DNA from: a virus
Direction: 5' to 3' (one strand)
IMG/VR virus record: IMGVR_UViG_3300024265_000192
Location: 1-26,008 of that record
Length of the DNA stretch: 26,008 nt
The notes below the pieces were generated by a model. The model had not been told where the DNA came from, did no database searches, and saw nothing but the letters and a program-made list of their open reading frames with translations. The stretch's first letter is position 1. Each line of letters begins with the position of its first letter. The position numbers and the translations under genes were made by a program. Below are positions 7,562 to 25,963 of the stretch, piece by piece.

Positions 7562-7816
7562 TTAATTATTGGGGTCTGTCATCCAGTCATACTCTGGTAT
7601 CGTGGCAAGTTTCGCTTCGAGCGCATCGACCAGCTGCTGATCGGTCCTGGCCGCAAGGCCATGCTGAGCCCTTAAGATGTTGATCTCATCTTTGATCACT
7701 CGCACCATCGCCTCCAGGAACACCGGCCCGAACTGCCGGTACAAGGTTTGGCGATTACCTGCATGAGCAGCAAAGCAAAGACACGCTATCAAGATTATCG
7801 TTATAGTTTTTCTCAT
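7562..7816 (-). CDS. Small exported phage protein (84 aa)
   Basis: A clear signal peptide (MRKTITIILIACLCFAAHA, cleavage predicted after Ala19) precedes a 65-residue mature part with a helical segment FLEAMVRVIKDEINILRAQ and the end EYDWMTDPNN. The DEINILRAQHGLAARTDQQL stretch resembles the C-terminus of small proteins often found near the lysis genes of phages, which as I recall lack the signal peptide. The gene lies between the tail fibre and the holin-like gene (12 and 11 nt gaps), with an AAGGG upstream. It could serve as a spanin-like or lysis-related factor in the periplasm, or a fibre assembly factor; neither is proven. Confidence 0.65.
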   Translation of the reverse strand: MRKTITIILIACLCFAAHAGNRQTLYRQFGPVFLEAMVRVIKDEINILRAQHGLAARTDQQLVDALEAKLATIPEYDWMTDPNN

Positions 7817-7828
7817 GTTTACCCTTTC

Positions 7829-9169
7829 TTAGTGCCACCAACCGGCTACGGTTATATCGATGGCGGTGAATGTTAAATTTGCCGTTCTATATTCGATTAT
7901 CCTGCTTGAATCCACTGAAACGATTTTATCCCCAAAGATGGTACTATTAGCGACAATTGTTCTGATATGCGAAACATTTATAGTGTTTGTATTGCCATTT
8001 TCTCTAAAAGAAACGATCGACGAAGTGGCATCATCTGTAACCTGCACTCTAAGCAGAACGGCCGTAGCAGTCGAATCTGTAACGATACTGCTAAGGTCCA
8101 GGTCTCGCCAGGTATTATCTGTCGTAAGATCTCCAACGGCAAAATCCTCCGAGGCAGGATCTCCCCGATCAGTATAACCTCCCACTCCCAAAGTAGCTCG
8201 AGCAGTCGACGCATCTGCATCGTCCAATAACGTCCGGGCAAACGAAGTAAGAGGCGTCACAGCATAAGTATCGCTTGCGGTTGTGTATGGCATCTTATCG
8301 GCCGCCGTTGTCAGTCCTGATATAGAAGTAAGGCCGGCATCGAGCGGCTGACCTCCGATACTGGTCAGCGCCGTAGCACCGCTTTCAGCTACCCAGTTGG
8401 ACCCGTCACCGACCATAAAGTTACCGTTAGTCACTGGCAAAGCAGCTATATCATCGAGCTGAGCGTCCCAGGCCTGAACATCGGTCCCGATTTCCAGATT
8501 CGTAGTAGCTTTAAATTCCGCCTCGTTATTATCATCCAGGAACGTCTCGGCATAAGCTGTAACCGTTGCATCGCCTGCAGCTATCCCGCTGGATATGATC
8601 GTCCACTCACCGCTTGCGTTCCAACCTGCGGATTGACTTGCCCTGTCTATCGAACTCGGATAAGTCATATCAAGAGTAGTATCGTCTGTTTCCGGGTTAA
8701 GCCCGGCCCGATTGAGCATCTCCTCTAACTGCTGCACCTTTAACGTCACAGCGTCAAGAGCGTTTGTAATCGACGCAAAACTTATAACATCCCCATCGGT
8801 AAAATTATCCCCTTGATCGTAAGGTATCACCCTGCCGATCACCAGCGTTACCCCGGTCGCTGGCGCAGTTACCATCGTGACGGTACCGCCACTGGTAAAG
8901 TCCAGATTAGTAGCCGTTACCGAATAATGCGTAGTCTCTGTTTTAAGCGTCTGAACGCCTGTCGAATCCACACGTTCCCATACCCGAAGGTCCGAGGTAC
9001 TTATGATCTCGAAGTCGAACGTGAACGTCGTATCGTTATCGTCACCGGCATCACTGGTAGGGCGATAACTGGTAGGCGTCACCGTCCCGAACACCACAGC
9101 ATCGAACGGGCAGCCCTGAAACAATACACACATCATCGACGCTAACATTATCATCTTAATTTTTCTCAT
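7829..9169 (-). CDS. Tail fibre protein (T7 gp17 N-terminal-like) with lipoprotein signal (446 aa)
   Basis: Mature residues from about 35 contain TFTFDFEIISTSDLRVWE, then GGTVTMVTAPATGVTLVIGR and a helix ITNALDAVTLKVQQLEEML. That is the order of the phage T7-type fibre N-terminal domain that anchors fibres to the tail. The middle is repetitive Ala/Asp/Thr-rich sequence with INSQ-type turns, and the C-terminal 110 residues form a beta-rich tip. It should bind the host surface. I start at ATG 9169 (AAGGAG six bases upstream), not 9175. The first 20 residues are a signal peptide with lipobox LFQGC (Cys20), so acylation at Cys20 is predicted, which is odd for a fibre. It overlaps the preceding gene closely (stop at 9172). 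Confidence 0.8.
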   Translation of the reverse strand: MRKIKMIMLASMMCVLFQGCPFDAVVFGTVTPTSYRPTSDAGDDNDTTFTFDFEIISTSDLRVWERVDSTGVQTLKTETTHYSVTATNLDFTSGGTVTMVTAPATGVTLVIGRVIPYDQGDNFTDGDVISFASITNALDAVTLKVQQLEEMLNRAGLNPETDDTTLDMTYPSSIDRASQSAGWNASGEWTIISSGIAAGDATVTAYAETFLDDNNEAEFKATTNLEIGTDVQAWDAQLDDIAALPVTNGNFMVGDGSNWVAESGATALTSIGGQPLDAGLTSISGLTTAADKMPYTTASDTYAVTPLTSFARTLLDDADASTARATLGVGGYTDRGDPASEDFAVGDLTTDNTWRDLDLSSIVTDSTATAVLLRVQVTDDATSSIVSFRENGNTNTINVSHIRTIVANSTIFGDKIVSVDSSRIIEYRTANLTFTAIDITVAGWWH

Positions 9170-9171
9170 GA

Positions 9172-12100
9172 TCATCTCCTTTTTCTTGGGCCCCCGCCGA
9201 TCAGTTCAGCCAGGTCCTCTTCCTGAATCGCTTTTATTATCCGCTTCGGCTGAACGGTCGGAACACCGTACAGAACCGCAAGCGCCTCGAGTACCGCGGC
9301 AAGGTCCTTCGCATCGCCTTTGCCTTTTGCTATCTCTTCGAGCCTGGCATAAATACTTGCAAGCTCAGATACCGGCCCGATCCCTGCATCACCAAATCCC
9401 CGCCTTGCCGATGTGATCGCCGACCCAACCAGCGGCAAAAGGTTTATCGCCTGATCGCTTATCGCTTCGATAAAATCTTCCGGCTCTTCCGGCAATCTTC
9501 GATTACTTATCGACCATATCATAAGAGCCGACACACTCAAACCACCTAACTGCAGCATAGCCTTCTGGACCTGACCGTTACCCAATTGACGCGGCATATC
9601 ATAGGTTGCAATGTTATAGATCTTCGAGAGCTGATTACTGAACATAAGAAACCAGTTCAATGTTTCACTATTGGTATATATCGCGGAAATATCCTTAGCG
9701 TTTGCCGCCGGCTGAGTTCTTAGTGTTGTCGCCTGCGCCTGCCTGATCGCCTCAGCCTGACTGCCGCCTTCGGCCAACACCTTATTAAACACCGCGTTCC
9801 ACCCAATGGTCCGGGCGATTGAGTCCATCATATAAATTCCCCGCATCCCGTTCTTGCCGATGCGCGTTATGATCTGTTCATACTGGCTACTGTCTGAGAT
9901 CTTCAGTTCCTCTAATACCCGCTCCAAAGCAGGATGAGCGACCTGTGGATCCAGACGACGGACCTTATCGATCAGGCCCTTCGGATTCGAGGAGAAATCG
10001 GCGGCAGATGCCATAAGATGCTGCAAACCCGCATCGGGCAGGTAGAATAATATAGATGGCAGTTGCTTGAGGATCGTCACCAGATTATAAGCAAGAACAG
10101 ATACCGCCATGTGTTTCCGAGCCATCCTCGACTTCTTTTCGAAATAGCCGTAGGCCTTGTATGTCTGGGGATTCGCTACCCGGCTGTTATAATCCCTGAG
10201 AACCTTGAGGTACTCCTCACCATACTTATCACTAACAGCATCCCTAAACGCTTTGCCGCTGGTTATCTTATGCAGGTCGGCGGTCAGCTTGCCGAGATGG
10301 ATGAAATGCTCCTGACGGGTTACCTGTTCCTGCCACAAGCTCCAAAGGTCCAGCCTGATCGGTTTCTGGAACTCCGGCGGGATATCCTGACGACTGATCG
10401 TAAAACCTTTAGCTGCATAAGCCTTCTTTAATGTCGAACGTTCCAACAGTTCGTTAAGGATCTGGCGCCGATCGGGTGTATAGTCCAATTCGCGCCTCCG
10501 CATCGGGAGATAGTTATCTTCTTTTTCGAGACGTTTTTCCTCGACCTCCACGAACGCCTCTTCCAGACGGTCAAAATGCTCTTCAAACTCTTCGATTATC
10601 CAATCGCTCAGATCAGCCAATCGCGGATCTTCCGTCTCTACATGGTGAACGATATCGGCGATGGTCTTAGCCCCGAGCCGGTTACCGAACAGCAGAGCCA
10701 GTCGACTTTTGAAATTCTTATTAAAGCCATAGATCCCGAGCAGCTCCTGAACCGAGTATTCGATCCCGTTAACGATCCGCTTCTGTGAGAGATCCTTCAG
10801 CGTAAATCCAAGCTCATCGAGTTTCGCCTGACCTGCATCGGCCCGGGCGTCCTGGACGATAAGCTTTGCGTCCGTTGCCTGATTAACCGCGTCGGCATAT
10901 AACGAGTGAGCGGGACCGTCGAAAGTACCCTTACCGCCGTCGAACAAGTCGAATATCCGCGTCGGCGTAAGAGTAACCGCCCTGAACGTCCGCCAGAACT
11001 TAAGAGCCTGATTCTGCTTAGTCGTCGTTGAATTGATCGGAGCTTCCTGCGGAGCCTCTAACCATCGCTTAACCCTTTGTTTTAACCGTTCGGGACTATC
11101 ATCTTCATGCTCGACCAACTGAGGCCCATCGACAACACTCATACCTTTATACCGAACATCATACCGGACGCCATCGGCTTCCACCTTGATCTCGGTAAGT
11201 GTAATATCGGCATCGTCGACACGATCCGGAGTTATCCATGTAGTCTCTTTTCTCGTATCGCCAACGATATTATCGATGATCTCACCGGCAAGTTCATCCC
11301 TCCGCCTTTGTTCCTGTTCCAGACGCAGCCGCTTTTTAGTTTTACCGATAGTTTCCAGCCGCTCGCGTTCAGCTGCCAGCGCCTCGAGATCGGCGATCGT
11401 GTATTCGTTAAGAGCTTTCCTGCTGATTATATCAGCCAACTTCTTAGGGATTCCTGCCTCGGGGTTATTGGCAAGAAAGTCCCTGACCCTTTGCCGCTGC
11501 GTCAGCGTCCTGGACGCCCTGAAAGATGGATCGATCCCAGCCTGCAGAGCGGCGATAGCTTCACGCTGCAATAGATCGACGGTTGCGGGCGCCCGCTTTG
11601 CGATCTTACGCGCCAGACCCTTGATATGTTCCCGCAGCTCTTTGCGCGCCCGCGCCCGCATAGCAATATCTTTGAACCGTTTGGTAGCTTTATTTATCCC
11701 AGCCTGATTACCAGCACGGAACGCCGCCCTGAGCTGTCGTTTAACTTCTGACAAAACTATCCGGTCCCCTTCGTTTTGATCGAGCAACTCCTCGACCGTC
11801 AGGCCCTTTTGATCGGCTATACCTTTGGCAGTCGGCTTAAGCACCGAGGCCTCGATGATATTGATCTGCAGCTTCTGATCGTTCGTCAGCGGACTCTCGA
11901 GCGCCTCTTCGGTAAATCCGAGTGTGATCTCCGCCTGCTGCCCCTTCCAGTCCTTCTGGAGCCGTTGGTGCATCTGGAACGGCGTCTCGCGCACAGCTAA
12001 CCCGAACCGTTCGATCCAGAGTGAATTTTTGTCCATCAGCTCTTTTCCGAGTTTATCTATAAACTCATCGAACGTCATCTCACCCGGATGGATCTCCCGA

Positions 12101-14925
12101 ACCACGAACATATTATCGAACGCCTTGCGGACATCCGGCGATATCTCGATATCCAGTGGTGAATTACGGAGATTATCGTATATCGCCCTGAGCCACTGAC
12201 GCAACCTTGCGAACGTACTCCTGAGCCTGTGATTAGGCGCTTTGCCATCCAGCAAATACTTCTCGAACCCGCGAGCGAACTTCTCTTCGTGTTTGATCGA
12301 CCAGTTGCCGCCCTCCACGCCGGCCCATTTTTCAACCGCCGCCAGATCTCTACCATCCAGCGTCCTCCTGAAAACATGACCCAACTCATGTAACAAGCTG
12401 GACAAATCGGCCTTTTCAAACGCGATCAGAGTAGCTTTGCCATCTTCAGCGAATTGAGCCGCCGCTTTTTTACCACGCTCAGCACGCTCGATCAGATCCG
12501 GCGTTGGTTCAGGTAGCAGCAAACTTTCAAGGTCCTGCTCTGAAATCCCCGCATCTTCACCAAATCCAATTATCTTGTTATTTATATCGCTTACCGACTC
12601 CCCGCCTTCTAACCCGGAGAGGAGGTCAGCTAATATCTGTAATTCACGATCGCCGCTTTCAATCGCCTTTTCCAGTAAATCCGGATTGATCCCACCCGTT
12701 TTCTTTTCCGCCGCGATCTGTTCCTCTACCAGGTTAACAAATTCATGTATCCCGATATCGGCGGATATATCAGCCTCACCGGTAACAGGATCCTCGACAG
12801 TTAACAGTTCCTGAACCACAGAGGTATAATCGTCTGCGCCAGCTTCCCGATCGAATGTGAATCGGTTATGCAGGCCCTTCTTAAACCCCTTCGAGCCGGG
12901 TTTGCCGGTGATCTGCTCGACATCGCCACGAAGTTCCGGCGATACGAAGAATTGAGTATGTTGCGATACCACCTTAAGCCGCTCATCCTGACCTGCCTGA
13001 AAGGCCTGAAACACCTCGCTCGATCTGATCTGATCCTGAACCTGACGGATCCGCCTGCGCCGGTCCTTATTAGTTATCCCCGTCTCGCGCAAAGCATCTT
13101 CATCGGGCCCAAAATCCTGAAAGAGGGTATCCCTGTCATCCTGAAAAAGTATCTGACCCTTTTCGAACCGAGCTGCCCGCACCGATTCGATATTCTCGGT
13201 TAGCCATTGATCGGTAGTCTTATTCTCGGCATCTGCTTTAGCCTGGACCAGAGCCATAGCCGCGGCAGCCTGCTTGTCATCGATATTAAATGCAGCCTTT
13301 GCCGAATCCCGAAAAGCAGCCGTCGCTTCGCCTGTACCCTGCCGACTGAACTTACCTGCTAATATATCGCTACGCTGCCGATCGAGCTCCGCGTTTGCTT
13401 CGGTTTTCTGCTCTTTACTCATTCCGGTAGTTTTATTCAAGATCGACCGCAACTGCTCGACCCGCTCACTCGCGGTCTTATCGGTAACTGCCCGCGTTCC
13501 GGTACCGGCTAGAGAGAATAACCCGCCCAGCGCCGTCTCGAGTACCCCACCGGCAGCCGCCTCTTCGGTGACGCCCTCGGTGATCCTGCCAAAGAAATCC
13601 TCTGTAAGCGATGTATCGGAAAACACCATACCCCACAAGTTAGCGTTAAGTGCCTGCCCGCCCTCTTCGATGAACCCCCGCTGAAAACTATCGCGCGTCC
13701 CGAGTATGATCTTCGCCCCGGCCCGGGCCATCTGATGACGGGCCGTGGATCCGGCAACTCCCTTAAATATCCCGATCTTCTTTTCCAGCGACCATTCCTC
13801 GAGAGCGCCCTCACCAACCGATGTAAGCAGAGCCTGACCGAGAGCCTGTGCAGGTGTTTTCCCCTCCTTTCGGGCTTCCGAATACGTCAGACCGAATATC
13901 TCCGTAGCCATCGCCGTGATCCGCCCGGCTACGGGCAGTACCTTTGCTCCGCGTCCTATCACGGCAGCGGCCTTTGTTCCCGTCACATGACCCAGATAAG
14001 CCTCCATCAGCATAGGAGACGTCTCGACCACACCCTGAACGACCAGCTCCGGCCGCGAGACGAACTGCCACACCGTTCCGAGTATCCCGGTACCCGGCTG
14101 GAGCTGCTGAGCCTCATCCGGATGCAGCCTGAAATACTCATCGGCCCCTTCGGCCATCATCCGACCCCACTCCGCTATCTGGTTGGCTGTATTACTGTCA
14201 TATCGCTTCGGCAGCTTATCTGCGAATTCACCATGCGCCTGAGCATGACCGGCAACGCTCTTAGCCATCCGGACCCCAGCCTGACTAAACCCAGCCGAGA
14301 CCGCTTCCTTGAAACCCTTGCGCTCGAACTCTTCCTTTTCCTTGAGTTTTTCCGTACCAACTGCCGCCGTCGCAACCGGTCCCCTCGCAGCTTCACGACT
14401 GAACCGAGTATTAGATTCGTAGAATCCGACATCCGGCTCGATCCCGATCTTACCCTTTGCCGCTTCCCACATCTTAACGAAGAAATCCGGCTCCTTACCC
14501 GCCCGTAATACCGGCATCCGCTTATACGGACTGAGTGCATCGACCACCATAGCCGGGCTGCCGACCGCCTTCGGCCCGAACATATTCTTAACGATCATAT
14601 CATATTGACGCTGAACCACATCCTTACTCTGGTTAAGCTTATCGGCAAGCAGCATCTCAGCGACCATCCGCTCGCGGTATACCGCTGGATTCGGCTGAAT
14701 ATCTATAAGCTGGCGCGTCGATTCGCGTTGATGCTCCGGCATGAGATCTTCGATCTGTTTCATCCCCTCGAGTACCGGGCGAAGTTTTGCGGTAAGCGAA
14801 GTCTTAGATCCGGTAGATAACCCGAACACCTCATCGCGCCCGCCGAGCAACTCCTCGGTACTGATAAAATGAGAGCCACCAGTTACGGGCTTTTTCATTA
14901 ACTCTTTTGTGCTTATAAAGGCCAT
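9172..14925 (-). CDS. Giant internal virion protein with HELGH metalloprotease motif (1917 aa; gp16-like position)
   Basis: Located where T7-like phages encode the largest internal virion (ejection) protein. Features along the chain: a duplicated ISTKEL/ISTEEL at 4-9 and 21-26, hydrophobic Gly/Ala-rich segments at about 270-470, and a zincin core at 840-895 with SLLHELGHVF (HExxH, His846 and His850). After that comes EEKFARGFEKYLLDG supplying the expected third glutamate, then a helical region about 1000-1230 including a coiled coil (ERERLETIGKTKKRLRLEQE), and a C-terminal 600-residue part like phage 'large polyvalent protein' regions. It is probably packed in the head and ejected with DNA, forming a conduit across the envelope; the protease could cleave other virion proteins or host targets. 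The T7 gp16 transglycosylase motif is not apparent. The start has only a weak ribosome site. Confidence 0.85.
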   Translation of the reverse strand: MAFISTKELMKKPVTGGSHFISTEELLGGRDEVFGLSTGSKTSLTAKLRPVLEGMKQIEDLMPEHQRESTRQLIDIQPNPAVYRERMVAEMLLADKLNQSKDVVQRQYDMIVKNMFGPKAVGSPAMVVDALSPYKRMPVLRAGKEPDFFVKMWEAAKGKIGIEPDVGFYESNTRFSREAARGPVATAAVGTEKLKEKEEFERKGFKEAVSAGFSQAGVRMAKSVAGHAQAHGEFADKLPKRYDSNTANQIAEWGRMMAEGADEYFRLHPDEAQQLQPGTGILGTVWQFVSRPELVVQGVVETSPMLMEAYLGHVTGTKAAAVIGRGAKVLPVAGRITAMATEIFGLTYSEARKEGKTPAQALGQALLTSVGEGALEEWSLEKKIGIFKGVAGSTARHQMARAGAKIILGTRDSFQRGFIEEGGQALNANLWGMVFSDTSLTEDFFGRITEGVTEEAAAGGVLETALGGLFSLAGTGTRAVTDKTASERVEQLRSILNKTTGMSKEQKTEANAELDRQRSDILAGKFSRQGTGEATAAFRDSAKAAFNIDDKQAAAAMALVQAKADAENKTTDQWLTENIESVRAARFEKGQILFQDDRDTLFQDFGPDEDALRETGITNKDRRRRIRQVQDQIRSSEVFQAFQAGQDERLKVVSQHTQFFVSPELRGDVEQITGKPGSKGFKKGLHNRFTFDREAGADDYTSVVQELLTVEDPVTGEADISADIGIHEFVNLVEEQIAAEKKTGGINPDLLEKAIESGDRELQILADLLSGLEGGESVSDINNKIIGFGEDAGISEQDLESLLLPEPTPDLIERAERGKKAAAQFAEDGKATLIAFEKADLSSLLHELGHVFRRTLDGRDLAAVEKWAGVEGGNWSIKHEEKFARGFEKYLLDGKAPNHRLRSTFARLRQWLRAIYDNLRNSPLDIEISPDVRKAFDNMFVVREIHPGEMTFDEFIDKLGKELMDKNSLWIERFGLAVRETPFQMHQRLQKDWKGQQAEITLGFTEEALESPLTNDQKLQINIIEASVLKPTAKGIADQKGLTVEELLDQNEGDRIVLSEVKRQLRAAFRAGNQAGINKATKRFKDIAMRARARKELREHIKGLARKIAKRAPATVDLLQREAIAALQAGIDPSFRASRTLTQRQRVRDFLANNPEAGIPKKLADIISRKALNEYTIADLEALAAERERLETIGKTKKRLRLEQEQRRRDELAGEIIDNIVGDTRKETTWITPDRVDDADITLTEIKVEADGVRYDVRYKGMSVVDGPQLVEHEDDSPERLKQRVKRWLEAPQEAPINSTTTKQNQALKFWRTFRAVTLTPTRIFDLFDGGKGTFDGPAHSLYADAVNQATDAKLIVQDARADAGQAKLDELGFTLKDLSQKRIVNGIEYSVQELLGIYGFNKNFKSRLALLFGNRLGAKTIADIVHHVETEDPRLADLSDWIIEEFEEHFDRLEEAFVEVEEKRLEKEDNYLPMRRRELDYTPDRRQILNELLERSTLKKAYAAKGFTISRQDIPPEFQKPIRLDLWSLWQEQVTRQEHFIHLGKLTADLHKITSGKAFRDAVSDKYGEEYLKVLRDYNSRVANPQTYKAYGYFEKKSRMARKHMAVSVLAYNLVTILKQLPSILFYLPDAGLQHLMASAADFSSNPKGLIDKVRRLDPQVAHPALERVLEELKISDSSQYEQIITRIGKNGMRGIYMMDSIARTIGWNAVFNKVLAEGGSQAEAIRQAQATTLRTQPAANAKDISAIYTNSETLNWFLMFSNQLSKIYNIATYDMPRQLGNGQVQKAMLQLGGLSVSALMIWSISNRRLPEEPEDFIEAISDQAINLLPLVGSAITSARRGFGDAGIGPVSELASIYARLEEIAKGKGDAKDLAAVLEALAVLYGVPTVQPKRIIKAIQEEDLAELIGGGPRKRR

Positions 14926-14932
14926 ACCTTAT

Positions 14933-16690
14933 CTACCTTGCTATTGCGTTAGGGTCACCACCGGCAACATTGTATTTCCACATACCATTTTCGTGGAACG
15001 TATATTCCACCCCGTTGATCATCCTCTTTTCACCGACCTCGAAAGGATCGGCTGAGGCATCCGGAGCATCGGCAGCGTCTAAGATAAACCTACCGAGCGT
15101 ACCGCGAACCTGCAGGGCGCCGAGCTGAGCGGTGATCTGCTCTTCGATGCTGAGCAAAGCCTCTGATTTTTTCTTGCCGGTAAACTGATCAACCAGATCG
15201 ATAGTCGTGAGAACACCGCCGGTCAGGGGACTTGCAATAGTTACACCCAGCCGTTTCCAGAACTTACGCTCATTAGACGGCTTTGTAAGCAGTCCAAGGA
15301 ACGCCTGAGCCTCCTCTGCACTTGCGCCCGGATTCGCTTTCCAAAAGTCCTTCCACTGCTGCTGTCGTCGATCATGAATGATACTGGGCTCAAGATTTTT
15401 TTTAGGGTCGGACGCAGGCCCGAACTCATCGTTGGCGAAAGCAGCTTTGATCTGTTTACCACCCCAACTCTCAGTCGACGCCGCTGTAAGGTCCAGGTTC
15501 CCCTCACTGAGCTTACGAACCGCCGCGTTAAGGTCATCCTGAAAACCGTTAAGGTCCGAATCGCCAATTTTATTAAAGTTCTTTTCGATAAAACTCTTAA
15601 CATCCTGACTATTTCGCTGACCGGTCTGAACATCCAGTATCATCTCGTTTATTTTCCAGCGTAGCCCTCTACCTGTTATGATCGGATGCTTGTCCCGGAT
15701 CCTCTTGATATACTTATCCCGAACAGTACTATTAATCGTGCCGGCATTGAACCGGTCCTGAACCTGACTTTCAGTAAGTGGCTGATCGGGATCGATCCAG
15801 GTGTTCCACAGAGTAGCTTCACTTTCGGCCTCTATGTTCTTTTGAGCGATAACCTTTTGTTCATTATCCCACGCAGCCTGAGCTTTAAGGTCCCTGATCA
15901 TCTCGACTTTTTTATCCTCCGGCAGATCGGTTGCGTTTATCAGATCGCGCCCGCCGGCGAAATCGATCGCGCCATCGTCACCTTTCACCTGGTTAGCCGC
16001 CGCCAGCACAGCGTCCGCCGTCCGCTCCTCGACAAGCTTCTCCAGCCGCTTACCCGCCTCTTCGTTCCACTTAGCGAACCCGGCGCCGTCGATCATCCCG
16101 GTAGCTTCGAGGTTCAATAGGTAAGCCTCGCGCTCGTCGAGAACATCCTGACGCTCGTTTGCGCCCGCCGTCTGCAGTATCCGCTCGTTATACGCATCGA
16201 TCTTAGGCGATATCTTCGCTTGCGATTGACGCCGGAGCGAATCGAACGCCCCTAATTCGATCTCGCGACGCCATCGAACACCCTGCTCTCTAAAAGAGGT
16301 CGACGCCGACTCCCTGGCCCTGTTATTTTTGAACCCTCCTAATATCGCTTCGGACGTTTCTTTATGCCAGGCATCGAATTTTTCGACGTGACCGGCATAA
16401 TCGGTATCGACCGGATCCCTGCTGCCATCTTCATTTAATCTTCCCTGTTGAAGGTCACTGCGAAAGCTATTATACCCACTCGATAGACTTAAATCGCCGT
16501 CTGTTATCTCTTCCACCGCCTGGAGCGACTGCATCCTAAGCGAAAGATTCTGGCCCTGCTCACCAAGCTGACCGATAACATTACCGAACTCAGCCGACGC
16601 CGCCGCTAATCCGCTGCCAAGCGACAAAGGAGCTGATACATTCGGCGATTGTCCCGATGGCAAAACCTCTTGAATTAGCTTTATAGCCAT
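14933..16690 (-). CDS. Internal virion protein (585 aa; gp15-like position)
   Basis: Mostly alpha-helical, with long charged helices (for example DAWHKETSEAILGGF, REQGVRWRREIELGAFDSLR and RQDVLDEREAYLLNL), a later region DPDQPLTESQVQDRFNAG, and a small C-terminal module RMINGVEYTFHENGMWKYN. No enzymatic motif is visible. Order and composition match the gp15-like ejection protein that forms part of the DNA-translocating tube with the 1917-residue protein. ATG 16690 has AGGGA six bases upstream. Gaps of 7 and 9 nt to its neighbours show it belongs to the same operon. Weak sequence signature, so the role comes from position and helical content. Confidence 0.7.
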   Translation of the reverse strand: MAIKLIQEVLPSGQSPNVSAPLSLGSGLAAASAEFGNVIGQLGEQGQNLSLRMQSLQAVEEITDGDLSLSSGYNSFRSDLQQGRLNEDGSRDPVDTDYAGHVEKFDAWHKETSEAILGGFKNNRARESASTSFREQGVRWRREIELGAFDSLRRQSQAKISPKIDAYNERILQTAGANERQDVLDEREAYLLNLEATGMIDGAGFAKWNEEAGKRLEKLVEERTADAVLAAANQVKGDDGAIDFAGGRDLINATDLPEDKKVEMIRDLKAQAAWDNEQKVIAQKNIEAESEATLWNTWIDPDQPLTESQVQDRFNAGTINSTVRDKYIKRIRDKHPIITGRGLRWKINEMILDVQTGQRNSQDVKSFIEKNFNKIGDSDLNGFQDDLNAAVRKLSEGNLDLTAASTESWGGKQIKAAFANDEFGPASDPKKNLEPSIIHDRRQQQWKDFWKANPGASAEEAQAFLGLLTKPSNERKFWKRLGVTIASPLTGGVLTTIDLVDQFTGKKKSEALLSIEEQITAQLGALQVRGTLGRFILDAADAPDASADPFEVGEKRMINGVEYTFHENGMWKYNVAGGDPNAIAR

Positions 16691-16699
16691 AATAGATCC

Positions 16700-17272: not shown

Positions 17273-17285
17273 TATTAACCTCCGC

Positions 17286-17756: not shown

Positions 17757-18214
17757 TATTGGACCTTTCTTTTAATTACCCACATTTTCGCATCGTTACC
17801 AGCCCCGTAATAATCTTTTCGCGTCTCTTCGAAAGCAAAGCCCAGGTACCTGACATACTGCTCACCGCGTTCGAACCCATCCCGGATAGGAGCCTGGACC
17901 CGATCTAGCTTAAGATCCTCGACCCATTGCCAAAACCTTTTTCTCGGGATATATGGATCTATATGGACGCTGCCAATATCGGCGACGAACAGACCCCACG
18001 CCTCGCCGAAACCAGGCTTAACCACACATATCCCCCCGCAGCCGACTATCCGGCCATCGACCACATAAGTAACCGATCGGGCGCTGCTTGCCATAAATTC
18101 AGCGACCACCTGAACCTCATCGCCGAACTTGATCCCGCTGTCAGCGACGCCATCATGCGTAGCCACGATCTCAAGAGCATGCTCCGGTTTATATGGTATA
18201 GTTTTGATCATCAT
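17756..18214 (-). CDS. GNAT-type acetyltransferase-like protein (152 aa; gp13-like position)
   Basis: The middle (about 45-85, TYVVDGRIVGCGGICVVKPG followed by GEAWGLFV) matches the central strands of GNAT acetyltransferases, and the C-terminus has EQYVRYLGFAFEETRKDYY, the usual 'A...LGF' end of the fold. The acyl-CoA pyrophosphate loop (Q/RxxGxG/A) is not obvious, so activity is uncertain. Proteins of this type take the place of T7 gp13 between nozzle and gp14 in many podoviruses and have been annotated as acetyltransferase-like internal proteins. The ATG at 18214 overlaps the nozzle stop (ATGA) with GAGGGGG upstream; a second ATG follows directly. Confidence 0.75.
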   Translation of the reverse strand: MMIKTIPYKPEHALEIVATHDGVADSGIKFGDEVQVVAEFMASSARSVTYVVDGRIVGCGGICVVKPGFGEAWGLFVADIGSVHIDPYIPRKRFWQWVEDLKLDRVQAPIRDGFERGEQYVRYLGFAFEETRKDYYGAGNDAKMWVIKRKVQ

Positions 18215-20913
18215 TCTACCCCCTCAAACTTTTTCCGGTTCCTTCTCCGCACCATAAAACCAATGAACCACATCGACGCCAGCGAAACCGGGATCAGATC
18301 GACCGGCCGGATCTTATCCAGCCTTGCAAACCCCTCACTTTCAAACTTCGGATATATAGATAATACCGTGATCGGCAGCGGCGAATCGGATTGTATATAA
18401 ATATCGCCACCGGTATCGTAATCGCCATCGAACTCATGCTCCTTATCCTCTACCCCTCGCAGCGGAACAGCAGCGCCAGCCGGATCGGAGGCCCTCCGGA
18501 AATCGATAGCCTCATAATCGGTCCACGAATCCCCGACCTTACAAGCCTGCGTATCGTGGAACCTTATCGTAAGCTCTACAACCCGCTTGATCAGCCCCTG
18601 CAGGTTAGCGCCCGGCACGTTGAGCCTCTGAGGCAGCAGCCTTGAGTTATAGCCAATGCCAGCGTGTACCATATTATAGAAGTTATCTAATGTGATCGTC
18701 GAACTCGCTACCGTCTCGGTCCCGTAGAACCCTCCGTCGACCTGGACCTGAACCTCTTCGCCCTCGAGATGCGTAAGCGTAGTAAAGTTATTTTCAACAT
18801 GCTCGACATCCCCACCCGTAGTATAGGCTGTAAATCCGGTAGAGTCGATATTAACCGCATCGGTCCTGTCCCTAAGCTCAAACGTCGTCGCATCTTCGTT
18901 ACTGACCGTAAATACCTGGCCATTAAGCTCATCCATCCCGCCTACAGAGGAGAATTTCACCTGCTGACCGTCCGTAAAGCTATGCCCTCCGGTCGTTACC
19001 ACCGCCGGCAGAGCCTTAGTTACACCTGTAACGGCAATACTTGCCCCGCCATCGAACGATAGACCCGAATCCACAAAGAACGCATCCTCTGCGTCTCCGA
19101 AATCCCTGGGCTGAAACTGCTCGATATACCGCACCGTCGACGAATCTATCGTTCTCTCGACGGACACCCAGATCTCATCTTCACCGTCACCTGGAATAAC
19201 TGCGATCGACTCATAATCGCCGGCGGTCGTATGCAAGTGCCAGGCGACGACCTCCTGTTCGCGGTTATAGGTCAGAGCCGCCAGATCGCCATCTTCGATA
19301 ACGCTCCAGAGAATAGGATCCGGAGTCTTTTGGAAAGCGAACTGAACTATACCATCTCCTGTAATATGCTCCGAGAGTACCGTCATATCCGGCGATACCC
19401 AGTTATCTAATTCAAAACTGAACGCAAGCTCCCGAACCTTTTTCGCCTGGCGCTGTGCGTAGAGTACAACGTTATTGACCATCACCGACTGAATAAATGC
19501 GGATCCGTAAGTGCTCTGTCGATGCGCTTGCCGGTTATCGAAGTTAAGAGGATCGTTATTACTTGCCCCGAACCGCCATTCACCCCCGCTGGTCCCTATC
19601 AGTATAGCGTTTTGCGGAGCCAGCCAGCGTATAGCGTTTACCTGGTTAGCGCTCAGCGAATATTGCAGGGCGCTTGTAGCGAACGTACCGGCTAAGAAGT
19701 TCGGCCAGTCATCGGTGCGCGACAGCCATATCGTCTGCGGACTGTTAGCGGTACCGCCAAAGCAGAGCCGCTCTTCGAAGAAACACACCGTATTAGGATA
19801 CCCCTCATCCGCCGACCACGCCCCTTCGTTCCAGAAGGCTGTCGCCGTTGTTCCGCCTAAGGTATTGGTAACGGTCCCGGATACATTATTGGGATCGGTT
19901 ATAGCAGTTATCGTGACGACCCCATTAACATCGAACGATCTGGCCGTAAGATTAAATGTAACGGTTCCGGAATCGATACCGGCGGCGCCCGCCTCGGCAT
20001 GGACCCGGTAGATCGCATCGTTAGCGCCCTCAGTCTCTGAAAACTGGATATTACCGTCGCTTTCGTAATGCACCGGTATAACATCCTTCCAGGTAACGCC
20101 GGAATCAAAGCTCTTTTGCAGCGACAGATCACCCGCCCAGGTCCCGTGAGTAGTAAAGTCGAACTTTCTACCCAATTGGACCGTAACGCTCGCTGAGTTC
20201 TGAGCAGATCCGTTATTGCTAAAGGCGCCCGACTCGTTTACCGCAACCGCCGTATGCGTTACCTGCCAGAGCGAACCTACATGATTAGCGTTGAACGTCG
20301 CAGACGATGAGGTCAGTGTTATGTCCCCCGTCGCTGCCGACGGCGTTAGCGTTACCGCCGTTTCGTTTTCTGCAAGGAACGGCCCACGCTGGAACGTCGT
20401 CGCTGTAAGTGTCCAGGCAGTATGATCGGTCCGGGTAAGCTCCATAACCGGGTAATCCGGATGGACCAGGTACATCGTATCGGCGGATTGAACGAATTGG
20501 ATATCGAATAGATCGGTACCCGCATCCGTATCGTAAGGCGATGCGATCTCGTAAGGCAAGCCGCCATCGAGTATCTGACCACCATTTCGGTAGAACCTGA
20601 TATATTCATCCCCAAACTCTAACATATATGCCTGAAGGATCGAGAACTCAAACGATATCAGCCGAACAGCCTCATCGGCCGCTTTAGCCGATGCAATGTA
20701 TTCGGTACCCGGCCGCTTCGTAACACCGCCATAAGACAGGACCAGAAAATTTTCCAGAGTGCGACAGCCCGAATAATACTTAGCTATATCCGTTCTACCT
20801 TCCAGCAGCGGAGAGAGCTCCCCTGCGTTAAAAGCATTGATCGTCGTAGTAACACCCGGCGATACCGCCGCGATGAGCAGGAAAAACAGCATAATTATTT
20901 GTTTCAGTTTCAT
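18211..20913 (-). CDS. Tail nozzle / tail tubular protein B (gp12-like, 900 aa) with signal peptide and C-terminal membrane anchor
   Basis: From residue 24 the sequence NAFNAGELSPLLEGRTDIAK followed by YYSGCRTLENFLVL and GGVTKRPGTEYI is the family signature of podovirus tail tubular protein B. Later parts include WNEGAW...GYPNTVCFFEERLCFGGT, DDWPNF, an FCCH-like module near 640-715 (GHSFTDGQQVKFSSVGGMDE) and PLPITVLSIYPKFE near the end. It forms the nozzle through which DNA exits. Unusual ends: residues 1-21 (MKLKQIIMLFFLLIAAVSPG) are a signal-peptide-like helix directly before the conserved start, and residues 870-900 add IPVSLASMWFIGFMVRRRNR, a membrane helix with basic cluster after the family's normal end. 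GAGGG upstream supports ATG 20913. Confidence 0.88.
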   Translation of the reverse strand: MKLKQIIMLFFLLIAAVSPGVTTTINAFNAGELSPLLEGRTDIAKYYSGCRTLENFLVLSYGGVTKRPGTEYIASAKAADEAVRLISFEFSILQAYMLEFGDEYIRFYRNGGQILDGGLPYEIASPYDTDAGTDLFDIQFVQSADTMYLVHPDYPVMELTRTDHTAWTLTATTFQRGPFLAENETAVTLTPSAATGDITLTSSSATFNANHVGSLWQVTHTAVAVNESGAFSNNGSAQNSASVTVQLGRKFDFTTHGTWAGDLSLQKSFDSGVTWKDVIPVHYESDGNIQFSETEGANDAIYRVHAEAGAAGIDSGTVTFNLTARSFDVNGVVTITAITDPNNVSGTVTNTLGGTTATAFWNEGAWSADEGYPNTVCFFEERLCFGGTANSPQTIWLSRTDDWPNFLAGTFATSALQYSLSANQVNAIRWLAPQNAILIGTSGGEWRFGASNNDPLNFDNRQAHRQSTYGSAFIQSVMVNNVVLYAQRQAKKVRELAFSFELDNWVSPDMTVLSEHITGDGIVQFAFQKTPDPILWSVIEDGDLAALTYNREQEVVAWHLHTTAGDYESIAVIPGDGEDEIWVSVERTIDSSTVRYIEQFQPRDFGDAEDAFFVDSGLSFDGGASIAVTGVTKALPAVVTTGGHSFTDGQQVKFSSVGGMDELNGQVFTVSNEDATTFELRDRTDAVNIDSTGFTAYTTGGDVEHVENNFTTLTHLEGEEVQVQVDGGFYGTETVASSTITLDNFYNMVHAGIGYNSRLLPQRLNVPGANLQGLIKRVVELTIRFHDTQACKVGDSWTDYEAIDFRRASDPAGAAVPLRGVEDKEHEFDGDYDTGGDIYIQSDSPLPITVLSIYPKFESEGFARLDKIRPVDLIPVSLASMWFIGFMVRRRNRKKFEGVE

Positions 20914-20926
20914 TTATAGTATCCCT

Positions 20927-21250
20927 CTATCCCGATTCTGCTTTTATCACCGCTTCGATTATCTGTTGATCTGTCAGCTTTTCCATCTGTTTGACCAGCC
21001 ACTTTCTATGAAAAGATGACGCTCCACCATACCAATACTTTTTGACGTACGGTTCAAATGAATCGTCGCTGGTTATGACCGCCCAAACGTCAGCAGTGAA
21101 TTTCATCTTGAAAGTAGCTATATGAGAGTCATGTTCGAAGCAGGTTGTTACCGGATTCTGTAAGGTTGGCCTTTCCATACTGTTGGGATCGCCTGCGCGT
21201 ACGATCCCTGCCATTAAAATTATCATTACAATCAAAGTTACATTTTTCAT
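20927..21250 (-). CDS. Small exported protein between nozzle and LamG genes (107 aa)
   Basis: A clear signal peptide MKNVTLIVMIILMAGIVRA (cleavage after Ala19, VRA|GD) is followed by an 88-residue mature domain with one cysteine, aromatic motifs (YVKKYWYGGASSFHRKWL) and a terminal helix (QMEKLTDQQIIEAVIKAESG). No family is recognised. It lies 11 nt after the LamG gene and 13 nt before the nozzle gene, with a perfect AAGGAG seven bases before the ATG, so it is part of the same operon. With the LamG gene it may form an exported adhesion or assembly cassette; this is inference from position. Confidence 0.65.
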   Translation of the reverse strand: MKNVTLIVMIILMAGIVRAGDPNSMERPTLQNPVTTCFEHDSHIATFKMKFTADVWAVITSDDSFEPYVKKYWYGGASSFHRKWLVKQMEKLTDQQIIEAVIKAESG

Positions 21251-21261
21251 TTTCTTGCTCC

Positions 21262-23949
21262 TTAATCTTTCAAAGTCCCATCTAATTTTAATGCTTCAAC
21301 GATGTCACCTATCGTGTACGCATTGCCTTGGCTACCGCCATCAAATGTATCTGTATCTGTGACAGCAGTACCCCCACCGCCAGTATCAATGCCACTTTGA
21401 GACAAGCTGGCCTCGTCCGGTTGCGTAAGTAGTGCTGGCTGACCAAAACAAGTAATACTGCCGCCCGCAACAAAGGAGTGAGAGATTGTTAAGTCTCTTG
21501 TGTCGGTTACTGTAATTGTTACATCCCCCGTTACCGTACCATCGTGAGCGTCGATGCTGTCGGTAAAGTTCTGAGTAAGCTTCCACCACGACACAAGATT
21601 AGCGTGAGAATAACTTTGGACAGTTTCGCCTAAAGCGAATATGGCTGCAATTTCTGCTGAGCCTAAAGCTGCATCAAAGTACATCACATTATTTACCTGA
21701 CCGGTATAGTCCCTGTCTGCATCGGTATTCCTTCTTCCAAAAACAATGGGATCTGTTGGATTATCTATAACAAAAGACACATCCTGGTCTTCACCTGCTG
21801 CTCCAGCGCCTTTTACGTTATCAACATACAATTCTATAGTATCGTCACCGTCAAAAACACCAACAAGATGGACCCATGCGTTTGTGTCAATCTGTACCAT
21901 CGAATTGATTGCCATTGTTATAGGAGTCGCTGCCCCGTCGCCCATAATGAAAAATGCTTTCCCAGTATCAGCGAGTAAAAACCCCCAATACGGTTCTGCG
22001 TTACCGACAGCCGCCCCCTGCTCTACAATTGATTGAAGTGACGAATCAGTAGATCTCATCCAAAATGACACTGTAAAACCTGCCGAGGTCCAGTTAAAAT
22101 CAGCGTGGTCACTAATTGTTACATAATCAGCACTGCCAGGAAAATCAGCATAGCCTTCCTGTGAACCTGTCCACGTTGCGGTTACGTCTCCAGAGTTCAA
22201 TAATTTCCATATATCCGCTATAAGTTCGTCAGTAATATATGTATCCATTTTGCCGTCAACATCAGGGATGAGAGCCTTGCTTGCTGTGTTTGTGCCGGGA
22301 GTAGCAGAGAGCAGGGAATGACTTGAACCGTCCTGGGTTACATGAGTAAAAGCGGTCTCGAAGTTAGTTTCCTGTGTAGTTGTGATAATTGCGTTACTGC
22401 CGCCATCAGAGAAGTTGTCGGCTGTAAATGTGGGAGCGGCACCACTTGTGACAGACTGATGAACACCTTGCAGGTTATCGTGAATTATATCGCCCTCAAG
22501 AATAGCTCCGGTCTCAGCGAGGGTCTTCTTAACAAAAGCATCGTTGCCGGAAGCTACGAGAAAATCGTTGGCTGCATCTGCTAAGGAGTGCGGTATCTTC
22601 TCAGCTTCTAATTCCTCTATCGCTCCCTGAACATTCGTAGAACCAATATCGCCTGTAGTAGTTGATGGGGTTTGTATGGCAGTCTGAACGCCGCCACCAC
22701 CACCACCGGCACCAGTTGATAATACCAGATAATCAATTTCTTGGTGATGTGATGAAATCCCGTTTTGTATATGCCTTAATCTTAACTTCGCCACCCCGGC
22801 ATCAATATAATCGACCGGGTTCAGAACAGCGTATTCATGAACCTCATAATCAGCCGATGCCGATTGAGTCGCTACTGTATCCCAATTCGTATCAATATTT
22901 AATAACTCCACGCTTAAAAAATGTGAGGCGGAGCCATCGTACCAATCCCGTATTATTATTGAAGCAAACGTAGTAACGCCTTCAAATGTGAATTCGGTGG
23001 TCAGTGGGAAATAATCACCAGCTAATACACCTGAACCCTCTCTTATCGAGAAAAAACTATCGTCATAAGAGGTTTCTATGGCGGTTAAAACATCGGCTAA
23101 CAGATGCCCTGCTTGGTCGGGTGTGCCGTCCCCTGATGTGACCCATGTTTCGCCGTCGATGTCGTATTCCTGATTCTGTTCATTGCCGGTAGAACCAAAC
23201 AATACAGATGCCGGAGCGATAAGTATTGGGGTCTCAACATAAGTATTCGTATCGACAGACAGTGACCCGTCTCCGCTCTCTGTCTTTACAAGCCCGTTAT
23301 CCGTAAGCGAACCGAGTTTTACGTTGGTAAGTGAACCGCCAACCATCGACGCAGTGCCATCTGATATAGTACCGTCAACCGTTACATTATGGCTAAATGT
23401 CATTAGCCCGCTACCGGCGATCATTGTATGGTCTGTTCCGGATACATCAAACGTCCATGTATTCGTAGCGTTTGAACCGTCGGACCATGTTGGCGAGTCG
23501 ATTAAAGTAGACAGCCAACCCAGCGTATCGCCCGTTAAAGTGACAGGCGAAGACACAGCAAGATTCGTGTCATCGGATACATCGATAGATCCGAACTCAA
23601 TAGCGGTCTCGCCACCGTTTACCTTTGCATACAAACCGGCTTGACCGCTATAACTGCCAGGAGTATCGGTAAGGCTGGTAAATGTACTGACACCACTGGC
23701 ATTTAACGTTGTACCCGTGATCGTCAGACCCGCTCCAGCCTCCAGCCAATTTAAAACCCCACCGCTAAAGTCATAGAACATAATCCGATCGGCCCCTGGA
23801 GGCGATGGCAGCGATAGGTTATTGGATATCTTAACGATCCTCCCATCGGGAAGGAAAACATAACGCGGAGAGTCCGCAACAACCGTTGACACCATAACTA
23901 TCAGCAGCGCTGCACATAATATCTTAACTATTTTCGATCGGGATCGCAC
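21262..23949 (-). CDS. Large exported LamG-domain phage protein, probable tail spike or receptor-binding cargo (895 aa)
   Basis: Starts at GTG 23949 with AGGAG six bases upstream; residues 1-25 are a signal peptide (KIVKILCAALLIVMVSTVVA). Next comes a fibre-like region (50-250) with repeats such as FTSLTDTPGSYSGQAGLY. A predicted beta domain (250-410) follows, then a hexaglycine linker (415-420), a second fibre segment (GSTNVQGAIEELEAEKIP), and a LamG/concanavalin-like domain (about 601-775, FTVSFWMRSTDSSLQS, AWVHLVGVFDGDDTIELYVD). LamG domains bind carbohydrates or proteins. It should be a surface-binding appendage. Its codons for the LamG part look more A/T-ending than flanking genes, suggesting domain acquisition. 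It overlaps the gp11-like gene by 26 nt. Confidence 0.8.
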   Translation of the reverse strand: MRSRSKIVKILCAALLIVMVSTVVADSPRYVFLPDGRIVKISNNLSLPSPPGADRIMFYDFSGGVLNWLEAGAGLTITGTTLNASGVSTFTSLTDTPGSYSGQAGLYAKVNGGETAIEFGSIDVSDDTNLAVSSPVTLTGDTLGWLSTLIDSPTWSDGSNATNTWTFDVSGTDHTMIAGSGLMTFSHNVTVDGTISDGTASMVGGSLTNVKLGSLTDNGLVKTESGDGSLSVDTNTYVETPILIAPASVLFGSTGNEQNQEYDIDGETWVTSGDGTPDQAGHLLADVLTAIETSYDDSFFSIREGSGVLAGDYFPLTTEFTFEGVTTFASIIIRDWYDGSASHFLSVELLNIDTNWDTVATQSASADYEVHEYAVLNPVDYIDAGVAKLRLRHIQNGISSHHQEIDYLVLSTGAGGGGGGVQTAIQTPSTTTGDIGSTNVQGAIEELEAEKIPHSLADAANDFLVASGNDAFVKKTLAETGAILEGDIIHDNLQGVHQSVTSGAAPTFTADNFSDGGSNAIITTTQETNFETAFTHVTQDGSSHSLLSATPGTNTASKALIPDVDGKMDTYITDELIADIWKLLNSGDVTATWTGSQEGYADFPGSADYVTISDHADFNWTSAGFTVSFWMRSTDSSLQSIVEQGAAVGNAEPYWGFLLADTGKAFFIMGDGAATPITMAINSMVQIDTNAWVHLVGVFDGDDTIELYVDNVKGAGAAGEDQDVSFVIDNPTDPIVFGRRNTDADRDYTGQVNNVMYFDAALGSAEIAAIFALGETVQSYSHANLVSWWKLTQNFTDSIDAHDGTVTGDVTITVTDTRDLTISHSFVAGGSITCFGQPALLTQPDEASLSQSGIDTGGGGTAVTDTDTFDGGSQGNAYTIGDIVEALKLDGTLKD

Positions 23950-24613
23950 AACAATCTCCTAAGCAGTCAACTCCCAAACCCGGCGCATCGATCACATCGT
24001 TATTACCTAGATCTTCATGTTTATTAGCCGACCCCGTCCTGGACCGCCGGCCCTTTGCGTTGGCTTTCTTAGCGATCTTCCAGGAAACATCCCATGCCCT
24101 ACCGACGGTAAGATTTATAAAGTTACTCTCACCCTTTACCGAAGTAACAAGGTACTGGACCAGGCGAAGAATATATAACCGAATATACCAGCTGGGCCAG
24201 AACTGCGGATTCGTTACCTCCGCGATGTATTTGATAAAGACGGTCGTAGCGTTTGTCCTGATAACCTGATGCTGTTCCTCTGCTGAGTCGATGAAAACAC
24301 CCCGCTCCCATTCATATTCGATATCCTTGCCTTTTTCGTCGCAGACCGCTATCAGCTCTACGAATTTGACGGGAAAGTCATAATGCTTTTCCAGATGACC
24401 GAACACAGGAGAGTCGCTTCGTTCGGATAATTGGGCGCGCCCCTCCATGAAATACCACTCTTCACCCATATCGGCAAGCTCATCGCCCACCGTATCGTAC
24501 AAGGTGTTTGCTAATATCGCCGCCTTTTTATCGGCAGTCACAGACGATATCTTCTTACCACCCTGCATGATCAGGGCCGCGTTTATGATCGCAAGTTTCG
24601 ATTTAGCTGCCAT
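23924..24613 (-). CDS. Tail tubular protein A (T7 gp11-like, 229 aa)
   Basis: AAKSKLAIINAALIMQGGKK, the stretch ADKKAAILANTLYDTVGDEL, then EWYFMEGRAQLSE and IKYIAEVTNPQFWPSWYIR are family features of the podovirus adaptor (tail tubular A): an N-terminal helix pair, a WxF...R.QL signature and an aromatic C-terminal helix. It connects the portal to the nozzle. Normal size (usual 190-230 aa). Unlike its neighbours it has no signal peptide. ATG 24613 has AAGG upstream. The C-terminal 25 residues (VDCLGDCCAIPIENS) are encoded within the overlap with the LamG gene and carry a cysteine cluster. Confidence 0.85.
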   Translation of the reverse strand: MAAKSKLAIINAALIMQGGKKISSVTADKKAAILANTLYDTVGDELADMGEEWYFMEGRAQLSERSDSPVFGHLEKHYDFPVKFVELIAVCDEKGKDIEYEWERGVFIDSAEEQHQVIRTNATTVFIKYIAEVTNPQFWPSWYIRLYILRLVQYLVTSVKGESNFINLTVGRAWDVSWKIAKKANAKGRRSRTGSANKHEDLGNNDVIDAPGLGVDCLGDCCAIPIENS

Positions 24614-24625
24614 AACGACCTTCGC

Positions 24626-25561
24626 TTATTTTCTTCGACCGTAAACAGTTATATTACCCGCCTCTTCGGCGGTAGCGCCATCGGCATCGTATACAACCAC
24701 CTGCATATATTCGGGAGGATTCTGGATCTGCAGGATAGCAATCTCATTATCGCCTGAGTTATAGACCCCGACGCCGGCAAGGTTGCCCTGGAACTTCGGC
24801 CATTTTGTAGCCTCATCCAGCGTGATCGTATCGGCCCACATAGAAGGAGCGATCTGAACCGTCGAATCGGTATTGTCATCCGTTGCGGTCACTGTTATCT
24901 TGATATTGTTCGCATCGGTAACGACCGTAACCTGAGAGAACCCGGAAGTAATATTGGTACCTGTAACGTAAGCCTGCATCCCGGCAACTACGCCAACCCC
25001 TATCCCGTCTTTTGTGAAATATTGATCCTGGGTCCCACCCGTATGATCGTAAGCAACCCCGGTAAGCGACACCAGAGAACCTAAAGCATCGCCGCCGTCC
25101 GGGAACACTACAACGCTTTGGGTACCTAATACGCAATCGCCCTCGCAGATGACCTGTAAGGGACCGTTGATCTTGTTCCAGCCGACGACGTTGAAACTGA
25201 ACGTATCGTCGACGTTATTACGATTCTCACCGCAGAACATAAGCTCCCATGTCTGGCCGGCTGACCACCCCTCATCGGGACCGGCTACGTTTCGAGAGGA
25301 TATCCTGAACGCCCCGCCATTGGCAACGCTCGAAGTATCCTTATTGGCGAAGTTACTCTCGATCCCGGCCAGAGCGTAGACGGCCGCAAACGTAGCGCCA
25401 TCCTCATCAGCCGTTTCGCGCACCAGATGCCAGCTCGAATGATAAGAATCAACCGGCACGGCATTGGCGTCTCGGGCGTCCAGCGACATACCTGTCATCC
25501 ACCACACAAAACAAACAAAAAACACCATAAACACACCAAATTGGATTTTTAACTTTTTCAT
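24626..25561 (-). CDS. Exported phage structural protein of unknown type (311 aa)
   Basis: ATG 25561 has AAGGGG six bases upstream and gives MKKLKIQFGVFMVFFVCFVW, a strong signal peptide with predicted cleavage after DANA (residue 34). The mature part has beta-rich sequence with a central module GIGVGVVAGMQAYVTGTNIT followed by SGFSQVTVVTDANNIKITVT, an arrangement seen in phage head or tail decoration domains, and a C-terminus EEAGNITVYGRRK. No definite family. Position just upstream of gp11-like suggests a head-tail junction or decoration protein. The alternative start at 25585 adds eight residues before the signal. Function unknown; the signal makes export likely. Confidence 0.65.
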   Translation of the reverse strand: MKKLKIQFGVFMVFFVCFVWWMTGMSLDARDANAVPVDSYHSSWHLVRETADEDGATFAAVYALAGIESNFANKDTSSVANGGAFRISSRNVAGPDEGWSAGQTWELMFCGENRNNVDDTFSFNVVGWNKINGPLQVICEGDCVLGTQSVVVFPDGGDALGSLVSLTGVAYDHTGGTQDQYFTKDGIGVGVVAGMQAYVTGTNITSGFSQVTVVTDANNIKITVTATDDNTDSTVQIAPSMWADTITLDEATKWPKFQGNLAGVGVYNSGDNEIAILQIQNPPEYMQVVVYDADGATAEEAGNITVYGRRK

Positions 25562-25886: not shown

Positions 25887-25963
25887 CGTATCGCCAGCCG
25901 GAACGGTCGGGTCGAAACTGTAATTGATCAGACACCCTTTAGCTTCGATCGCCGTTGTAGTAA

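Follow-up and report, generated by a model that had tools for sequence, protein, structure and literature searches.

The window analysed here (26,008 bases, the entire IMG/VR record G000) carries the late genes of a podovirus, several of which encode N-termini resembling signals for export by the host Sec pathway. Sequence comparisons support the view that these export signals are real in form, that they recur in related phages and that they mostly mark the outer virion. The six genes starting at 25561, 23949, 21250, 20913, 9169 and 7816, to which an earlier note on this DNA had attributed signal-like N-termini, do all encode such segments, each with one to four lysine or arginine residues, a hydrophobic core free of charges and a site plausible as a cleavage point or lipobox; a Shine–Dalgarno-like sequence lies upstream of all six starts. 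In the tail nozzle (20913) and the tail fibre (9169) the matches to the conserved domains begin after the N-terminal segment (from residue 23 and about residue 43, respectively), and the signals are therefore prepended in both, as the note had proposed.

Signals were called by a rule that combined a basic n-region, a hydrophobic core and a cleavage or lipobox site, with a core Kyte–Doolittle (KD) value of at least 2.0 or, in the strict version, 2.4. All six genes passed at 2.0 and five of the six at 2.4, the fibre scoring 2.39, and the seven other complete late genes (starts 24613, 18214, 17756, 17272, 16690, 14925 and 7550) failed. The strict rule marked 22 of 1731 genes in 173 related-phage loci without a signal-bearing nozzle; against this background, the probability of at least five passing genes among the window's 13 complete late genes was about 4e-7 (6e-7 among 14), and a chance origin of the signals was rejected. 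When calibrated on 101 Escherichia coli K-12 genes with classes assigned from product names, the strict rule marked 11/16 exported, 0/57 cytosolic, 13/23 inner-membrane, 4/4 unlabelled and 0/1 twin-arginine translocation (Tat) proteins.

The features of Sec and signal peptidase I substrates (basic n-region, hydrophobic core and small residues at −3 and −1) are present by this rule, the fibre having a lipobox (LFQG-C) instead; no lipobox was found by the rule in the homologous fibres of two related phages, L125 and L181. Cleavage points, which the note had listed for five of the six proteins, are plausible in all six, those of the nozzle and of the protein starting at 25561 being weak in the window and clearer in relatives. 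A mis-chosen start for the window nozzle was rejected, as codons 11–52 contain no ATG, GTG or TTG. An in-frame ATG at codon 8 lies within the hydrophobic segment, and a start there would keep the core and drop the basic n-region.

Recurrence of the signals in related phages

Relatives of the nozzle were drawn from viral contigs, genome contigs and named phages. Of the 184 loci in which the nozzle start could be read, 12 were marked by the rule (the window, L002, L086, L006, L015, L124, L125, L182, L128, L177, L181 and L089), of which L002 and L086 are the same virus as the window and L182 is a near-copy of L125. The signal of L089 was rejected as a false call from a far-upstream start; its usual start is 10 residues ahead of the domain. 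Signal nozzles remained in 11 of the 184 loci, representing eight distinct phages, and 173 loci were without (172 unmarked plus L089); in 168 of the 172 unmarked loci the nearest start lies 8–12 residues before the nozzle domain. Kin of L128 (L192 and L193) and of L177 (L194–L203) had a hydrophobic nozzle N-terminus in 12 of 12 new loci, with an unusual start codon at the match start in L202. A search for kin of L015 found none, and further scans raised the total to 17 signal-nozzle phages. The hydrophobic segments of these nozzles vary in their letters and keep their pattern, often with an A-x-A end (AFA^EN, AYA^EQ and VSA^QT). The earlier note had asked whether close relatives lack the segment: homologues in the nearest relatives retain it, whereas those further removed start with the domain itself.

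In a tree of 135 nozzles (a quick search, built without L192–L203, L243, L248 and L249) the signal requires at least four changes (0/500 shuffles were as low), the starred branches alone forcing two. The trait is clustered and, with at least four changes needed, was probably gained or lost on more than one occasion. Distantly related signal-nozzle phages were found to share metagenome numbers (L200 with L002, 3300009788; L196 with L182, 3300035698).

The genes of 15 distinct signal-nozzle phages were tabulated by hand from gene order and signal results, with family labels assigned partly by gene order. Start-cut genes (for example the portal of L006, the scaffold of L015 and L198 and slot A of L197), genes between scaffold and capsid, and five ‘other’ genes lying between the nozzle and the internal proteins (of which L203 8875 alone was marked) were left out, as were L195, L199 and L202, which are near-copies, short or (L202) lack a usual start codon. 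Slots A and B denote genes between cement and gatekeeper, and slot C those between gatekeeper and nozzle. Signals were found on 15/15 nozzles (the selection criterion), 11/11 slot A, 10/10 slot B (one, L198 4652, anchor-like) and 7/9 slot C proteins, that is 28/30 slot proteins, and on two of four fibres, the window fibre falling just below the cut-off. No signal was seen on the portal (0/7), scaffold (0/12), capsid (0/14), gatekeeper (0/15), GNAT-like protein (0/11), internal protein C (0/10) or internal protein D (0/6), 0/75 in sum. With the exceptions discussed below included in the inner set, signals marked 31/37 genes of the outer set minus the nozzle vs 3/102 of the inner set, a difference for which a p value is a guide only as cells from one phage or its kin are not independent. 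The strict rule fired on 39 of 175 genes of these 15 phages vs 22 of 1731 elsewhere (Fisher p 2e-27), the former count including most of the nozzles by which the phages had been selected.

The same genes also occur with and without the segment. Of the 45 loci with the fibre N-domain, two (L185 and L189) are start-cut. The domain carries a signal in four rows (the window, L002, L125 and L181), which correspond to three of the three signal-nozzle phages in which it was found with its start, and lacks one in 39 of 39 loci of phages with a plain nozzle, where most fibres begin MT[VI]S. The slot A homologue of phage MW202647, directly after the capsid gene, has no signal, and homologues of the L128 cement elsewhere align only from its residue 18 or later. 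A scan with slot B, for which selection was independent of the nozzle, returned 13 loci, including four already known, those of the window's phage, L181, L125 and L182. The nine others all had a hydrophobic N-terminus, and of the eight junctions compared seven read A^EP and one A^LP; in the homologues from L125, L181 and the scan loci a signal-like N-terminus precedes the motif [VLE]P[LV][DH][ST]Y. L240, L244 and L246 are apparently near-copies of L181, L243 and L125, respectively. Four of the nine loci include the nozzle start, and L243, its near-copy L244 and L248 have a nozzle signal, the fourth (L249) being without.

The late gene map and the virus

All late genes lie on the minus strand, with starts in the order slot A (cut), 25561, 24613, 23949, 21250, 20913, 18214, 17756, 17272, 16690, 14925, 9169, 7816 and 7550:

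25599–26008, minus strand: slot A gene region, 3′ part, beta-helix-like protein; the signal-bearing 5′ end lies beyond the window (L002 3646–4950, MKKFFILLMLVAVTA...)
24626–25561, minus strand: slot B protein, 311 amino acids, between cement and gatekeeper; N-terminal signal, predicted mature part from about V35 (VPVDSYHSSWHLVRE)
23924–24613, minus strand: tail tubular protein A/gatekeeper, phrog_394; no signal
21262–23949, minus strand: slot C protein, 895 amino acids, LamG-like domain PF13385, GTG start; signal with predicted site VVA^D
20927–21250, minus strand: slot C small protein, 107 amino acids; signal with predicted site VRA^G
18211–20913, minus strand: tail nozzle, phrog_376 over residues 23–861; signal in residues 1–22
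20848–20913, minus strand: nozzle signal segment, residues 1–22, N-terminal to the phrog_376 match
18214–18330, minus strand: nozzle C-terminal extension, a hydrophobic stretch followed by an RRRNRKK tail
17756–18214, minus strand: GNAT-like protein, phrog_4177; no signal
16700–17272, minus strand: internal virion protein B-like, phrog_418; no signal called
14933–16690, minus strand: internal virion protein C slot, identity from position; no signal
9172–14925, minus strand: large internal virion protein slot, 1917 amino acids, phrog_9880; no signal
7829–9169, minus strand: tail fibre with T7-type N-domain; signal with lipobox LFQG-C
7562–7816, minus strand: small post-fibre protein, 84 amino acids; signal with predicted site AHA^G
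7323–7550, minus strand: 75-amino-acid protein with a single C-terminal hydrophobic segment; no signal, holin candidate from position only

The earlier count of six signals among fourteen late genes is right for the six named; slot A, cut at the window edge and longer in L002, is a further signal gene. Podovirus features comprise the nozzle (phrog_376 homologue, E 2.1e-206), the gatekeeper upstream of it and internal virion protein phrog_418 downstream, and matches of the fibre to phrog_13893 and phrog_1640 over residues 43–162, which we take to be the T7-type fibre N-domain. Residues 641–706 of the nozzle match Pfam E1_FCCH above the cut-off. Structure models were of limited use for the slot proteins: that of slot B was too poor (predicted local distance difference test (pLDDT) score of 39), and that of slot A was beta-helix-like with weak matches only (pLDDT 61).

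The start of a second record, G001 (IMGVR_UViG_3300009788_000048, 45,860 bases; locus L185 is its segment 1–9075), is the reverse complement of window 9075–1 at 99.99 % identity. As the end of G001 reaches window position 8953, so that its two ends overlap by about 120 bases, and the window spans the join, the two records are the same virus cut differently, about 45.7 kb and circularly assembled or circularly permuted. The implication in the note that the window is a planctomycete prophage is not supported, the virus assembling as a circle with no host flank; identification of the host from a provirus flank was likewise rejected, the supposed flank being phage DNA, and no tRNA or Rfam match that might have led to the host by an attP/tRNA route was found in the window. 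Two assemblies of this virus differ by indels at two places, near 25970, the site of the disturbed slot A frame, and at 10139, the point at which the 1917-amino-acid gene is split in L002.

Adjoining the integrase gene, window 3444–5030 (plus strand) encodes a protein with a signal, a PKD domain and a weak dockerin match below the Pfam cut-off, possibly the product of a lysogenic conversion gene. Other Pfam matches under their curated cut-offs were disregarded. Dockerin-like motifs were found only here and in L181 (8754); they hint at a host rich in such domains, a content typical of some planctomycetes. A signal on the nozzle was found in none of 37 related genome-contig loci (L089 being the false call), nor at any of the 27 readable starts among 30 loci in 387 genomes from the phylum of Lentisphaeria (39 of the 387 had a nozzle match; L213, L215 and L233 were unreadable). 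In the phylum of L106, one of five genomes examined had a nozzle.

Proposed assembly in two compartments and its alternatives

For tailed phages, complete particles are assumed to be built in the cytoplasm. Because the signals fall on one class of genes, recur in relatives, are rare on inner-virion genes and occur in a virus with a single nozzle gene, we consider it fairly probable that assembly is split between compartments, outer virion parts being exported by Sec, heads staying in the cytoplasm and the two joining late. Heads (portal, scaffold, capsid, gatekeeper ring and internal core) would be built and filled in the cytoplasm, whilst the nozzle, fibres, and beta-helix and lectin-like slot proteins would pass through the Sec machinery of the host, be processed by signal peptidase I (the window fibre perhaps becoming a lipoprotein) and fold in the periplasm. 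Heads and tail parts would then come together only once the inner membrane gives way at lysis; filled heads and tails of other phages do join in lysates. What we infer from the sequences is export itself and cleavage, that virions contain the mature proteins, when and where the two halves join, and also that the slot proteins are virion parts at all. A stronger version is put forward tentatively: the outer tail would be secreted and would mature in the periplasm, every virion would be completed only after the inner-membrane breach, and short-tailed phages would have gained Sec signals on nozzle, fibres and spikes more than once.

It matters for this proposal whether the signal-bearing nozzle is the virion nozzle. 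The nozzles of L181, L196 and L203 have no start codon in the searched span; in 11 others of the 15 phages some in-frame start occurs there, and those preceding the domain all have a Shine–Dalgarno score of 0. As the alternative starts score 0, it is probably the nozzle of the virion that bears the signal. No second nozzle gene was found in 11 records, most of them fragments (nine from signal-nozzle phages, one of them L182, the near-copy of L125, together with L183 and L184; L192–L203, L243 and L248 were outside this check), double rows being pieces of one gene, as in the frame-split gene of L177. The existence of two nozzle isoforms was rejected, the window's virus having a single nozzle gene and these 11 records no extra one.

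Several observations weigh against assembly in two compartments. As 13 of the 23 inner-membrane proteins passed in calibration, the rule detects entry into the membrane pathway, cannot tell a signal peptide from an N-terminal anchor and does not prove cleavage. The window nozzle ends in a hydrophobic stretch with an RRRNRKK tail, absent from six other nozzles aligned, which could mean membrane anchoring or sorting; a sortase-like reading was rejected, as it had no NCBIfam support. In L124 an ATG stands exactly at the mature nozzle start, with a Shine–Dalgarno score of 0. On the outer side, the slot C genes of L128 and L192, the fibre-like gene of L196 and two of three post-fibre genes have no signal. 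On the inner side, signals were found on two of 14 cement proteins (L128 and L192) and one of 13 internal B proteins, the L125 homologue (10573–11247) with a prepended signal-like segment. Small signal-like genes also lie between scaffold and capsid (L124 2167, L241 5999, L242 1716 and L250 2948). Finally, L249 (2831–7571) is an intermediate case, with a plain nozzle and with signals on four slot genes, slot A and slot B among them; upstream of the plain nozzles of L184 and L106 there are likewise signal-like genes. Because of these last three loci the split is not all-or-none: slot-gene signals are more widespread than nozzle signals in the sequences compared, and the division into outer and inner proteins is a strong tendency and no law.

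The failure of the rule to separate anchors from signals leaves room for a different explanation, in which the segments stay uncleaved and hold tail parts at the inner membrane, where these would either serve heads as docking sites or become hydrophobic components of the virion for use at infection. Eight of the 20 slot A and slot B proteins do have runs of 20–27 residues without charged or strongly polar letters, the extra slot gene of L198 is anchor-like, and the window nozzle has the second, C-terminal hydrophobic segment. In 12 of the 15 nozzles, however, the uncharged run is only 9–16 residues, many ending A-x-A-like just before the conserved domain start, and the slot B junction A^EP is kept in relatives; a nozzle anchored in the periplasm would, moreover, presumably be unable to bind a cytoplasmic head unless the membrane were lost. 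Anchoring is thus judged unlikely. Export for a role outside the virion, by display on or release from infected cells or lysogens (receptor blocking, degradation of surface sugars or superinfection exclusion), is a rather improbable explanation, even with an integrase and another gene of predicted export (3444–5030, with the PKD domain) in the phage, with fibres and with LamG-like and beta-helix-like proteins whose folds are of binding or sugar-degrading kinds (the beta-helix match being weak), and with slot proteins that carry signals where the nozzle is plain (L249). Display by the lysogen, which the earlier note had offered, is less economical than late joining because the window's virus has a single nozzle gene, in which no internal start lies close to the domain, and the zero Shine–Dalgarno scores in the 15 phages argue in the same direction.

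The fragmentary state of most records would suit an explanation in which hosts have taken over the tail genes of defective or domesticated elements for use in secretion. We regard this as very unlikely, given a circular assembly with integrase, capsid-region, gatekeeper, nozzle, internal and fibre genes, and a trait that recurs in 17 divergent phages. An artefact of wrong start codons or chance hydrophobic N-termini is largely excluded and hardly credible: short N-terminal segments are easily mis-called and the cleavage site of the window nozzle is weak, but its codons 11–52 contain no start, the number of passing late genes far exceeds the background, and the signals recur in relatives picked by another gene, slot B. 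If assembly in two compartments is correct, head and tail would be separated in space and time and completion of the virion would depend on lysis, which would provide a natural test of whether short tails add to filled heads after membrane loss; signal peptides in phage genomes could then not be read by default as lysis or moron genes.

Comparison with known systems

Exported proteins of tailed phages include endolysins with a signal peptide or of the signal-arrest-release (SAR) type, spanins and lipoproteins, which serve in lysis or exclusion. Virion proteins made with cleaved Sec signals are known from the coat of filamentous phages, which differ in that they are not tailed and assemble by extrusion through the membrane. 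In the literature, an endolysin with a predicted canonical Sec signal is described (PMC8951688), phages without signal peptides are reported (PMC10698182), and three signal peptides are reported over five phages (PMC5723332). Such an endolysin of a tailed phage shares the use of host Sec with the window's proteins and differs in being a lysis protein, not a nozzle or fibre. The earlier note knew of no phage with the present pattern, and no description of signals on nozzle or fibre proteins was found among the matches listed in full-text searches of the open-licence PMC literature.

By profile, the nearest solved relative of the nozzle is 8ck1_A (E 9e-171), the match starting at its residue 15. 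Salmonella phage epsilon15 (Uetakevirus-like) has the same order of capsid, cement, decoration slot, gatekeeper, nozzle, GNAT-like and internal protein genes, and its nozzle is homologous to that of the window (31.6 % identity) but begins MAFSWIQPSFAGGE, without a signal. The Pelagibacter podoviruses Skadi and HTVC035P share the gene order and the nozzle family (about 40–42 % identity), and the nozzle of Skadi likewise begins without a signal (MARVAAQLSNFTAGE). Podoviruses of the T7/epsilon15 type usually start their tail proteins without an export signal, whereas the nozzle and fibre of the window have signals prepended to them.

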